Shown in pieces: positions 1,324 through 27,556 of a DNA stretch of 64,000 bases (the first letter of the stretch is position 1; every line of letters starts with the position of its first letter). The translations under genes were made by a program, and so were the position numbers. A model generated the notes under the pieces. It was not told the DNA's origin. It searched no databases and saw only the letters and a list, made by a program, of their open reading frames with translations. The stretch spans positions 124,001 through 188,000 of the forward strand of contig MEDJ01000022.1 of assembly GCA_001724025.1 (NCBI GenBank). The letters are read 5' to 3'. The DNA comes from Acidobacteria bacterium SCN 69-37. GTDB lineage: Bacteria > Acidobacteriota > Vicinamibacteria > Vicinamibacterales > SCN-69-37.

Positions 1324-2553
1324 TCAACGGACCGCGAACCGCACCAGTCGCGCGGCCGTCCGCTCACCGATTGCCGCCTCGACGCGCAGCAGGTATTCAC
1401 CAGGCGCCAGGTTCTGCACCGGCAGCGTCAGGCGCGACGTCGCCGTTCGGTTCGTCCCGAACTGATCGGGCGCCAGCACGATCGATTGATCACGTTCCGC
1501 GACGTCGTGCGTGTCGATGATGCGCACACGCAGGGAAGCGGGTTGCAGGCTGTCGGTACGTTCGGTGCCCTGGGAGATCTGGAGAAGCGCCTGCACCTGG
1601 TCGGTGCGGGCGAACGACCGTTCCGTGGTCGGCGCGGCTGGCACGGACGCCGCCGCGCTCGCAGGGCGCTCGATCGCGATGTCCGACAGCGCGAGCCGCT
1701 CGCTCGCGAACGCCGGTACGACGATCTGCGAGAAAACACTGGCCATCGTGTCCGTCGTGGTATCGGTCACCGCCACGCGCACTTCGTAGTCGCCTGGCGG
1801 AAGCACCAGATGTGTCGGGAGATGGATGGGCACGCCGGTATTGGACGCGGGGCGCGGTCCGGGAATCGTCGACGTCTGCCGGGCCGACGCAACGGACCGG
1901 CCCGCCTGGTCGACAGCACTCACCGATACGTCGAGCGGAATGGACGACGCGGTGTCGTACACGAAGCCGCTCACATCCACGCTGGCGCTGACGATGGCAT
2001 CCCCGCCGTCCGGGCTCGCGAACGCGGCCACCGCCATCGTCAAGGGACGGGTGGCATCCGGCAGCAGGCCGTTCACGGCATCATCCGGCGCCACGCCGCG
2101 CCGCACGCTGGCTGGGGCGGACGACGTCGCCTCGGATGCCGCTGGCGGCAGATACCGTCGTCGGGTCGATACCTGCACGTCGCGGCGTGCGACCTTCACG
2201 TCGATCGATCGGAACGCGCCGGCATGTGGATCGCGCGCGGCCTCGAAGCCGATGAGATAGTACGACTCACTCTCGCGGAAGATCGCAGACACCGTCTGTT
2301 CCGGCGCATTGCGATTGACCACCGTACGGCCGCCGGTCAGATCGGGAAGGACACGAAGCGTGCCCTGCGTTGCCAGCGCCTCGTTCATTTCGGCCTGCAG
2401 GGCTTCCCTGCGCAGCCGCGCGGCCACACCCTCCGGCAGAGCGCCAAGATTCTTGGTACTGGCCCGTGTGTGTGGTCCCACGCTGGCGACGAGGACGTGG
2501 ATGGCGAGTTCATGCAGGTCGGCGGGTGCCTGCGGGAGCTGTCCTGCGTACAC
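1324..2553 (-). pseudogene. VWFA-related Acidobacterial-type protein, N-terminus deleted
   Basis: The frame encodes the C-terminal two thirds of a second VWFA-related protein. It contains TGGRTVVNRNAPEQTV and ESESYYLIGFEAA (about residues 70-105), equivalent to the YYLLGY segment of the gene at 1-1272, then two beta-sandwich-like regions (PPGDYEVRVAV and APGEYLLRVEA) ending in RLVRFAVR. No signal peptide and no FEDG segment are present. Recognisable homology starts about 13 codons in, near 2535. At that same point a BlaI-like frame begins on the other strand. The first 200 or so residues appear to have been lost in a deletion that joined two genes, or the assembly is chimeric here. Confidence 0.7.
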
Positions 2554-25064: not shown

Positions 25065-25565
25065 TTACCGGCGACCCGCCGGCGTGATCGGCGAGGCCTG
25101 CTGGATCCAGTCGCGCGCGGTCGCCTGCAGCGGGGCGTAGGCCAGCCACGTCGCGCGCGCCCACCGATCGATGCCCGCCACGAGCAGCAGCGGTTCGCTC
25201 AGCGTCTCGAGACTGTTGACCAGGATGCTGCCGCGGCCGTCGGGCCAGCCGGGCGCGGGCGGATACGGCGCGTGCTGCCAGTCCGGACGGGCCGCCAGTT
25301 GCGCCAGCGCGCGATGGCCGCGTTCGGACCCGTCGTGCTCGAGCGCCCACGCCACGCCGCCGAGGTGGACGATCAGCTCCGCATAGGACGTGCAGAGATC
25401 GGCCGGGTGCTGCAGCGCGTACACGTCGTGCATCAGGCGCCAGGTCTTCAGGCTGTCCGTCCACGCCAGCGCCCGCACGCGCAGCGAGACGTCCGTGAAC
25501 AGATCCTGGCAGCGTTGCCGGCCGGCACCCAGACCACACCCGGAACAGACGTCAGACGTTCCCAT
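25065..25565 (-). CDS. DUF5946-family protein
   Basis: A 166-residue protein beginning MGTSDVCSGCGLGAGRQRCQ, a CxxC motif near residue 7-10 that could bind metal. The body is helical with WTDSLKTWRLMHDVYALQHP, SYAELIVHLGGVAWALEHDG and RATWLAYAPLQATARDWIQQ. The pattern is that of the DUF5946 family found in Acidobacteria and actinobacteria; function unknown. Convergent with the AraC regulator, 13 bp between stops. Confidence 0.7.
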   Translation of the reverse strand: MGTSDVCSGCGLGAGRQRCQDLFTDVSLRVRALAWTDSLKTWRLMHDVYALQHPADLCTSYAELIVHLGGVAWALEHDGSERGHRALAQLAARPDWQHAPYPPAPGWPDGRGSILVNSLETLSEPLLLVAGIDRWARATWLAYAPLQATARDWIQQASPITPAGRR

Positions 25566-25601
25566 GTATCCCGGGGCATTCTACCGTGACCGTCCGAAGG
25601 A

Positions 25602-25619
25602 CGCCCCGGAACCGGGGCG
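25602..25619. terminator. GC hairpin between small membrane gene and DUF5946 gene
   Basis: CGCCCCGG-AA-CCGGGGCG, perfect 8-bp arms, lies between the stop of the 33-residue gene (25652) and the start of the next minus-strand gene (25565). It could end the short transcript; no T-run follows. Confidence 0.4.
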
Positions 25620-25651
25620 CCCTCGCGGCAATCGCACGTGGTGTTTGAAGA

Positions 25652-25753
25652 TTAGATGAAGATGATGGCGAGCAGGGCCGCACCAACGAGCAGGATGCCG
25701 GTGACCGGTTCCGCGGTGCTCGAGAAGTCCCAGCCGAATGAATGGATACGCAT
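25652..25753 (-). CDS. 33-residue single-span membrane peptide
   Basis: A short frame ATG 25753 to TAA 25652 encodes MRIHSFGWDFSSTAEPVTGI followed by the hydrophobic run LLVGAALLAIIFI. An unusually good ribosome site, AAAGGAGAG, lies 8 nt before the ATG. One polar N-terminal half and one hydrophobic C-terminal half suggest a small single-span inner-membrane protein like those in stress responses. About 230 bp of non-coding sequence lie upstream. It is too short for most gene callers. No partner can be named. Confidence 0.6.
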   Translation of the reverse strand: MRIHSFGWDFSSTAEPVTGILLVGAALLAIIFI

Positions 25754-25984
25754 GGCCGTCTCTCCTTTCAGGGAGAAGAGACGAGAGTCGGTGCCGGAAA
25801 GTTACGGCGCACGTGTGACATTCCACCGGCCCGCTGATGCCGGGACGCTCGTCGGTCGTCGGTGGTCGCGAGCTTGTATGATCTCCCTGCCTCGTCACGG
25901 CACCGGCGCTCAAGATGAGCCGCGCGCGAGGGACGATCAGAGATCGATGAAACAGATGGACGCAATCACGGGGCTGGCCCCGGC

Positions 25985-27556
25985 ATGACCCCTCTCGACT
26001 ACGACATCGTGATCATCGGCAGCGGTGCAGGCGGGGGCACGATGGCTCACGCCCTGGCCGACACGGGCGCGCGCATCCTGGTCGTGGAACGCGGGGCCGC
26101 CGTCCCGCAGGAGCCGGAGAACTGGAGCCCGCAGGCCGTCTGGAACGATCTGCGCTACCGGACGACGGAGCGGTGGCTCGATGACACGGGCGAGGCGTTC
26201 ATCCCGACCATGCACTACAACGTCGGGGGTAACACGAAGTTCTGGGGCGCGGTGCTCTACCGTCTGCGCCGCGAAGACTTCGGGGCGCTGGAACTGGCCG
26301 ATGGCGTCTCGCCGGCGTGGCCGATCGACTATGAGACGTTGGCGCCCTGGTACGACAAGGCCGAGGCGATGTACCACGTCCACGGCGCGGTGGGCGACGA
26401 TCCGACTGAACCGCCGCGCCGGGCGTTTCCGCACGCCCCGATCCCCCATGCGCCGGGCATGGCCCAGGCGGCGGCCCGGCTGCGCGATCTCGGTCTGCAC
26501 CCGTCGCCACTGCCGCTGGGCCTGATCAACCCGGGCGAACCGGACGGCTGCATCCTCTGCCGGACGTGCAACTCGTTCCCGTGCCGGATCCACAGAAAGA
26601 GCGACGCCGAGGTCTGCGGCGTCCTGCCGGCACGCGCGCACGCCAACGTCACGGTGTGGGAGCGGACCGTGGCCCGACGCCTGGTGACCGACGCGTCGGG
26701 CCGCCGGATCGATCGTGTGGAACTCGATCGGCACGGCGAACTCGTGTCCGTGCGGGCACCGGTGATCATCGTCTCGTGCGGGGCGGTCAATTCCGCCGTG
26801 CTGCTGCTGCGCTCGGCCAACGACAGGCATCCCCGGGGCCTGGCAAACTCATCGGACCTCGTCGGCCGCCACTACATGGCCCATCTCGCGACCATGCTCC
26901 AGGGCGTGTCGTGGCGACGGAACAACGACGAGTTCCAGAAGACGCTGGCGATCAACGACTTCTATCTGCGCCGGCCGGACACGCGGTATCCGCTCGGACA
27001 GATCCAGTCGCAGGGGCGCACCGACGCCCGGATGGCCAAGGGCGTGGGGGATACCTGGCGCTTCAAGGGCCTGCCGATGCGCTACATCCCGCTCTGGGCG
27101 TATGCCGGCTGGGTCTCGCGGGCCAACGACTGGCTCGCGATGACCGAGGATCTGCCGCGTCCGGAGAATCGCGTGACGCTCACGTCCGACGGACAGATCC
27201 GGCTGACCTACGCACCGACGAACGTGACCGCACACGCTGAACTCGTCGACCGGCTGCGCGGCCTGCTGGGCCGGATCGGCTACTGGTCGCCGCGGGTCTT
27301 CGCGCACTCGACAGGCGTCCGCAACACCACGCACCAGTGCGGCACGCTGGTGTTCGGCCACGATCCCCGTTCGTCGGTCCTCGATCCGTTCTGTCGCACA
27401 CACGATGTCGACAACCTCTACGTCGTCGACGCGTCCTTTTTCCCGTCGTCGGGGGCGGTCAACCCCGGCCTGACGGTGGTGGCGCAGGCACTGCGCGTCG
27501 CCGATCACATCAGGACCACGCACCTCGGCCTCGAACCAGGAGATCTCGCATCGTGA
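25985..27556 (+). CDS. GMC-family FAD-dependent oxidoreductase
   Basis: A 523-residue flavoenzyme. YDIVIIGSGAGGGTMAHALA is the FAD-binding GxGxxG near residue 8. MHYNVGGNTKFWGAVLYRLR is the GMC signature region. GCILCRTCNSFPCRIHRKSD is a Cys cluster typical of a cholesterol-oxidase/gluconate-dehydrogenase-like subgroup. The C-terminal GAVNPGLTVVAQALRVADHI with HQCGTLVFGHDPRSSV supplies catalytic His and FAD contacts. GMC enzymes oxidise alcohols or sugars. No Tat signal peptide is present, so it is probably cytoplasmic or needs a partner. The next gene begins within its stop codon (TGATG). Confidence 0.88.
   Translation: MTPLDYDIVIIGSGAGGGTMAHALADTGARILVVERGAAVPQEPENWSPQAVWNDLRYRTTERWLDDTGEAFIPTMHYNVGGNTKFWGAVLYRLRREDFGALELADGVSPAWPIDYETLAPWYDKAEAMYHVHGAVGDDPTEPPRRAFPHAPIPHAPGMAQAAARLRDLGLHPSPLPLGLINPGEPDGCILCRTCNSFPCRIHRKSDAEVCGVLPARAHANVTVWERTVARRLVTDASGRRIDRVELDRHGELVSVRAPVIIVSCGAVNSAVLLLRSANDRHPRGLANSSDLVGRHYMAHLATMLQGVSWRRNNDEFQKTLAINDFYLRRPDTRYPLGQIQSQGRTDARMAKGVGDTWRFKGLPMRYIPLWAYAGWVSRANDWLAMTEDLPRPENRVTLTSDGQIRLTYAPTNVTAHAELVDRLRGLLGRIGYWSPRVFAHSTGVRNTTHQCGTLVFGHDPRSSVLDPFCRTHDVDNLYVVDASFFPSSGAVNPGLTVVAQALRVADHIRTTHLGLEPGDLAS

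Follow-up and report, generated by a model that had tools for sequence, protein, structure and literature searches.

A conserved 33-codon gene with an ECF-type promoter, probably encoding an envelope-stress-induced small membrane protein, in one Acidobacteria order

A small gene between DUF5946 and GMC oxidoreductase genes

The window (i.e., the whole stretch of 64,000 nucleotides from Acidobacteria bacterium SCN 69-37, genome G000, analyzed here) contains a gap of exactly 419 bp between an ORF encoding a DUF5946 protein (start at 25565, minus strand) and a divergent ORF encoding a GMC oxidoreductase (start at 25985, plus strand). Within this gap, a minus-strand ORF extends from an ATG at 25753–25751 to a TAA at 25654–25652 and encodes a product of 33 aa, MRIHSFGWDFSSTAEPVTGILLVGAALLAIIFI (Table 1); the window's genome contains one copy of this peptide. 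An earlier sequence-only reading, which gave no strand, had described a 33-residue membrane peptide ending in a hydrophobic run of 13 residues and preceded at 8 nt by a ribosome site, in a 419-bp region otherwise free of genes. All of these points were recovered; the Shine-Dalgarno sequence AAAGGAGAG ends 6 nt before the ATG if counted from its last G and 8 nt before it if counted from its GGAG core, and the 14 residues from residue 20 to the C-terminus include no charged or polar side chain.

A single-sequence AlphaFold2 model (no alignment) presented one C-terminal helix (residues 14–32), whose pLDDT is 72–74 up to residue 20 and about 95 thereafter, and no regular structure in residues 1–13 (pTM 0.37). 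With an ORF below the limit of 50 aa, conserved and coding as described below, and with one predicted membrane helix, the peptide would fall in the class of small single-pass membrane proteins (≤50 aa). The window peptide matched no family in Pfam or NCBIfam, and Rfam gave no match in the window at gathering scores. Scans of the peptide region for sigma-70 promoters and for intrinsic terminators returned no site. Folding of a 101-nt stretch (−41 kcal/mol, z −1.70; 12 of 200 shuffles folded equally well or better) yielded a 12-pair hairpin located 27 nt past the peptide stop codon, which is not called a terminator because it lacks a T run.

Table 1. Features of the peptide locus, in positions of the window.
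Feature	Position	Strand	Basis
Small membrane peptide gene, 33 codons (stop codon included)	25652..25753	-	ORF reading, family profiles, codon constraint, predicted helix
Shine-Dalgarno sequence	25760..25768	-	Read directly upstream of the peptide ATG
CGTC, -10 core of ECF-type promoter	25780..25783	-	AAC-N17-CGTC pattern
AAC, -35 core of ECF-type promoter	25801..25803	-	AAC-N17-CGTC pattern
12-pair hairpin	25597..25624	-	Folding of 101-nt stretch
DUF5946 protein, downstream neighbor on the same strand	25065..25565	-	PF19371, 6.4e-13; context, outside the system elsewhere
GMC oxidoreductase, divergent upstream neighbor	25985..27556	+	PF05199, 6e-20; context

Extent of the peptide family and protein-level selection

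An initial search of 60 genomes, including the window's own, produced 28 matches (E up to 1) spread over 23 genomes; besides the window's own match, 15 were small ORFs with the same layout, and the rest were located in longer unrelated frames. At E < 1e-4, a profile built from these 16 small ORFs (A1) matched 57 of the order's 162 genomes, 55 of them with a single match. A second profile, built from divergent family members (A5), added eight genomes, bringing the family to 65 of the 162 genomes, the window's included; the A5 search did not find the window's own copy, which counts against the explanation preferred below. The family is present in 14 of the 15 order families numbered in the 60-genome search. 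A 51-row profile matched 15 genomes at E up to 0.01 in a 396-genome draw of the phylum, all from the same order, in a draw whose share from outside the order is not given and in which divergent members could be missed. With the window's row left out, the profile still found the window ORF at an E of 1.9e-11, the next best among the 1213 six-frame segments of the window being 0.46. A tblastn search with the window peptide found zero matches in 50,697 phage and 72,556 plasmid records. Named genomes with the peptide are metagenome-assembled and labeled Acidobacteria (several of them "gp6"), Vicinamibacteria, or Vicinamibacterales, with some labels evidently wrong (e.g., Bifidobacterium breve); as these genomes overlap with the searched genomes of the order, they do not represent an independent sample.

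Family members are 27–34 aa long and consist of an N-terminal segment of 11–16 residues, which closes with the motif W-x-F-S-S-T-A-E, and of 16–20 mostly hydrophobic residues (median 17) that extend from the acidic residue of the motif to the C-terminus. In the 51-row alignment, the consensus is MxEWxFSSTAExVVGxLL with a hydrophobic end after it; in window numbering, S11 and L22 do not vary, and F10 and A14 hardly do. Only 4 of 53 members have a charged residue after the acidic residue of the motif, and the best 15-residue hydropathy of the 53 members has a median of 2.97 and a minimum of 1.99. A divergent subfamily (L304–L307, L309, L266, L268, and L272) presents YDKADW instead of WxFSSTAE, with an AAC-N17-CGTC promoter where this was read and with the neighboring VWA gene described below. 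A decayed peptide gene was also found beside a VWA gene in L163 (G098; about 1500–1600, minus strand), where the helix and the latter half of the motif can still be read and the start and first half lie outside the same open frame; a similar remnant is present in L238.

Across 17 non-overlapping close pairs, differences numbered 59, 30, and 113 at codon positions 1, 2, and 3, respectively, and 86 of 202 changes (0.43) were synonymous; 500 random-mutation trials averaged 0.17 and never exceeded 0.25. Judged by this codon pattern, the peptide family is under protein-level selection. Start codons were ATG in 49 and GTG in 4 of 53 members, and 50 of the 53 had an SD-like core ≤18 nt from the start, a count that is not independent since starts were picked partly by the ribosome site; the codon, charge, and ribosome-site counts omit G083 (chimeric contig) and G057 (cut by a contig end). 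The 33-codon ORF is almost certainly a real gene, and the proposal of a real membrane peptide gene made in the sequence-only reading is sustained by the frame kept across the order, the codon constraint, the ribosome site, and the recurring promoter described next.

An ECF-type promoter upstream of the peptide genes

Upstream of the peptide gene, AAC and CGTC elements are separated by a spacer of 17 nt. Of 54 loci, 42, window included, have the AAC-N17-CGTC pattern no more than 120 nt upstream (G083 is omitted from this count), with letter shuffles averaging 0.31. The promoter consensus is TTAAACCTTT-N13-CGTCTAAC; among the letters that the pattern itself does not force, T, A, and A follow CGTC in 71, 86, and 90%, respectively, and CTTT follows AAC in 52–69%. 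Two observations weigh against the preferred explanation: the exact pattern is missing in 12 of the 54 loci (two of which show N16 spacing), and the −10 element of the window continues as CGTCTCT, while most members present CGTCTAA. The N17 motif was present in nine of ten members outside the defining set (the exception being G148), and 26 of 34 peptide loci from named genomes had the promoter, which was missing in the other eight, likewise counting against that explanation.

Excerpts from two publications give AAC at −35 and CGT at −10 as hallmarks of ECF promoters (PMC8103513) and describe CGTC at −13 to −10 as functionally important for one ECF sigma factor (PMC3397946); the peptide promoters share the AAC −35 and CGTC −10 of the RpoE-like and ECF promoters in these excerpts, with a 17-nt spacer. 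An AAC/CGTC promoter at fixed spacing, as expected of an ECF regulon, was found upstream of most peptide genes, including that of the window. We consider it very likely that the family as a whole is preceded by an ECF-type promoter, and slightly less so that the window copy is. Transcription would be expected to start about 10 nt after CGTC, which in the window is just before the ribosome site.

The gene and the promoter type are well supported by sequence; expression, sigma factor, target, and function are inferred. We favor, as the probable interpretation, that this ORF is a gene for an envelope-stress-induced, tail-anchored small membrane protein.

A TIGR03436 VWA-protein gene as the usual neighbor

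In 48 of 55 loci, the peptide gene lies next to a gene encoding a VWA protein of the TIGR03436 type, mostly tail to tail; this neighbor and the ECF-type promoter are two features that the sequence-only reading had missed. These 48 loci include 42 with convergent genes (gaps of −18 to 234 nt, median 28.5), two with convergent and overlapping genes (G031, where the VWA frame runs into masked bases, and G045, where it runs through the peptide gene), and four with the VWA gene in the same orientation, up to 184 nt upstream. In two more loci, the genes are convergent but farther apart (754 nt in G061 and 1662 nt in G015), and one locus is located on a chimeric contig (G083); three of the remaining four are at contig ends, with the tail of a VWA gene readable in two. 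Among the loci with ample flanks, only the window has no VWA cluster member within the 9 kb searched. G068 and G148 (contig ends) were left out of the 55-locus set and were read later among ten extra members, nine of which had a VWA gene within about 700 nt (six convergent and three in the same orientation, located about 180, 270, and 700 nt upstream), a linkage that is partly by construction because some profile rows came from VWA loci.

The VWA protein of G049 matches TIGR03436 (acidobact_VWFA) at 3.9e-54; the usual neighbor matches this model, and the peptide itself is outside the family. In 39 of 50 VWA proteins, a crude test identified a hydrophobic stretch close to the N-terminus, which suggests export of the VWA protein. 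We know of no role assigned to TIGR03436 proteins, and a search of the open-licence literature by the name of this model found no publication on the family. A promoter of the same type as a general feature of VWA genes was ruled out, as an ECF-type promoter preceded only 5 of 51 of them (2% in shuffles); this count gives no sign of co-regulation of the VWA and peptide genes and also speaks against the preferred explanation. The window itself includes two TIGR03436 matches on the minus strand, one over the family cut-off (1–1131) and one partial match below it (2149–2412).

The adjacency has led us to consider, as a tentative and somewhat doubtful proposal, that the peptide serves the VWA protein as a dedicated physical partner (an anchor, a secretion or assembly helper, or a switch) and that the pair represents one functional unit. 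The linkage is kept in two orientations although genes farther out differ, and TIGR03436 genes are scattered in the window's genome (21 matches in 4.4 Mb), making linkage by chance unlikely. However, the two genes are mostly on opposite strands and so are not co-transcribed, they are 754 and 1662 nt apart in G061 and G015, and VWA homologues without the peptide exist. Among 80 VWA loci from named genomes, 34 had a peptide match at E < 1e-3 (including one decayed copy), 30 of which were convergent within 500 nt; a search for promoter-preceded short ORFs in the 46 loci without a significant peptide match recognized one more peptide, with some of the peptide-less loci among the 80 being cut by contig ends. 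Furthermore, in the window's genome, the peptide and VWA genes are on different contigs.

The window copy as an exception

While the peptide gene is usually next to a VWA gene, the window copy has DUF5946 and GMC oxidoreductase genes as neighbors and carries its own promoter. The closest VWA homologue in G000 is located on another contig (C23:18236-19102) and is 55% identical to the query. VWA homologues at E up to 1e-30 were found in all 14 genomes of the window's family, the one in G010 being only distant (38% identical). None of the 13 other genomes of this family had a peptide match at E < 1e-4 (best 0.08, in G008), which again counts against the preferred explanation. A rough search for a ribosome site and a hydrophobic run ≤700 nt downstream of the VWA gene in 11 genomes of the window's family, G000 among them, found no family-like peptide; it returned one weak candidate, in G005, without the family motif. 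The same-genus genome G001 has kept the block of GMC oxidoreductase and DUF5946 genes, with a different gene, presumably encoding a Gfo/Idh oxidoreductase, where the peptide region would be. The pattern in the window's family and in G001 suggests that the window copy either moved away from its usual neighbor or was acquired.

The sequence-only reading had named a lack of frame conservation in relatives with this region as evidence against the peptide gene. The frame is conserved across the order, but the same-genus genome has another gene at this place and the 13 other genomes of the family are without a match; as the conservation is visible only with an order-wide search, that test needs to be applied with care.

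Candidate regulon and sigma factor

A strict form of the motif (AACYTT-N14-CGTCTMA) was searched in six genomes and presented 15 sites in four of them (3–6 sites each), compared with two for a reversed control. The absence of strict sites from the window's genome and from G036 counts against the preferred explanation. Four of the 15 sites are the peptide genes' own promoters. The eleven others include one site in G030 in front of an ECF sigma gene that has a zf-HC2 (zinc-finger) anti-sigma gene after it, two that precede PDZ-protein genes (G060, confirmed by Pfam, and G049, by likeness), one in G060 before a gene encoding a 49-aa protein, one in G049 located 75 nt before a gene that we take to be MurJ-like, and three just before genes that presumably encode permease-like proteins (G049; L168, L176, and L179). 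The remaining sites precede an unclassified protein gene (one, in G030) or have no convincing gene (two, in G074). These sites suggest an envelope-stress regulon, several of whose members may represent chance matches; most non-peptide sites precede genes without a clear envelope-stress role or no convincing gene, which does not favor the preferred explanation.

One ECF sigma factor group was found in 31 of the 162 genomes, and the peptide (A1) was present in 25 of these 31 genomes as compared to 32 of the 131 others, in a hand count that is confounded by kinship. At the thresholds used, this group was not detected in G000. Its own promoter was located at 9 of 29 loci, eight of which read CGTCCA. 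A second ECF sigma group (L185, L186, L187, and L192) presents a similar motif upstream of itself, with an 18-nt spacer, which reads AACG...CCCGTCTAA in most of these loci.

The strict sites before the sigma and anti-sigma genes and the PDZ-protein genes, together with the co-occurrence of the first ECF group and the peptide, would fit a peptide that acts as a feedback regulator within an ECF sigma/anti-sigma cascade. We consider this unlikely, given that the co-occurrence is confounded by kinship and that the candidate sigma factor's own promoter is a variant or was not found in most loci.

Proposed mechanism and comparison with known small membrane proteins

Under the preferred reading, that of an envelope-stress-induced, tail-anchored small membrane protein, envelope stress would free an ECF sigma factor from its anti-sigma factor, and the freed sigma factor would transcribe the peptide gene from the AAC/CGTC promoter. 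As a tail-anchored helix, the peptide would then enter the inner membrane; the conserved motif at its N-terminus may dock on a membrane or envelope complex and adjust that complex, in the manner proposed for known stress-induced small membrane proteins, the likeliest partner or pathway mate being the probably exported VWA protein. A more specific joint reading, which we regard as rather unlikely, is that the ECF-switched micropeptide and the VWA protein form a two-part module that converts envelope damage into changed activity of the VWA protein or its complex, and that this module spread through one Acidobacteria order with its smaller part missed by annotation.

The AcrZ and MgtS proteins are stress-regulated short single-helix proteins that tune a larger membrane complex, and the peptide, with its single predicted helix, would resemble them, with no kinship claimed. 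TisB is a hydrophobic, SOS-induced type I toxin of about 29 aa that is controlled by LexA and by an antisense antitoxin RNA. It shares size, hydrophobicity, and a stress-type promoter with the peptide; however, the TisB promoter is of the LexA type, while that of the peptide is of the ECF type, and the peptide is not known to have an antitoxin RNA. The E. coli protein YohP (27 aa), whose production has been tied to starvation and stationary phase and has been reported to alter membrane fluidity and potential, belongs to the same size class of small membrane proteins, with no sequence kinship claimed, and the excerpt of its description mentions neither ECF control nor a VWA neighbor (PMC12719787).

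A TisB-like role, in which a stress-induced, membrane-active peptide lowers the membrane potential and slows growth as a type I toxin or dormancy effector, would be compatible with the small size, the single hydrophobic helix, and the stress-type promoter, and YohP production has been reported to lower the membrane potential, according to an excerpt (PMC12719787). On the other hand, the conserved positions are mainly those of W-x-F-S-S-T-A-E and a single helix leucine, a pattern more suggestive of a binding surface than of hydrophobicity alone. The mostly single match per genome, tied in most cases to one neighbor, and the lack of a tblastn match in phage and plasmid records also argue against a TisB-like role, and, as to an antitoxin RNA, an Rfam search returned no match in the window; we consider this role distinctly unlikely. 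It is highly improbable that the window holds a chance ORF or a part of a non-coding RNA, as might be suggested by the absence of Pfam, NCBIfam, and Rfam matches and of the gene from the same-genus relative, because amino-acid conservation with synonymous change and the codon pattern refute a chance ORF for the family, the leave-out profile recovers the window ORF, and the arrangement of promoter, ribosome site, and start codon is repeated among the members.

The peptide family appears to be undescribed so far, stress-induced small membrane proteins being a kind already known; a narrow search of the open-licence literature found no publication on such a family. A family of genes of about 30 codons, present in 65 of 162 genomes of one order, is not covered by Pfam and NCBIfam. 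It offers two handles that are rare for orphan micropeptides, i.e., a promoter from which the conditions of expression can be predicted and a neighbor that hints at a partner. A conserved peptide companion would offer a way into the numerous TIGR03436 proteins.

Wider gene context

Genes farther out from the peptide gene vary among the loci read, as judged by rough gene calling based on codon composition and used for context only. A gene family whose member in G087 is frataxin-like (CyaY) provides an upstream neighbor, nearly always divergent, at 21 of 55 loci among the matches listed; in L082 (G087), the frataxin-like gene is located 61–382 nt upstream. In L035 (G049), ORFs that we take to encode proteins resembling cytochrome c oxidase subunits are located 4–7 kb upstream of the peptide gene; similarly spaced ORF clusters recur in 13–14 genomes among the matches listed.
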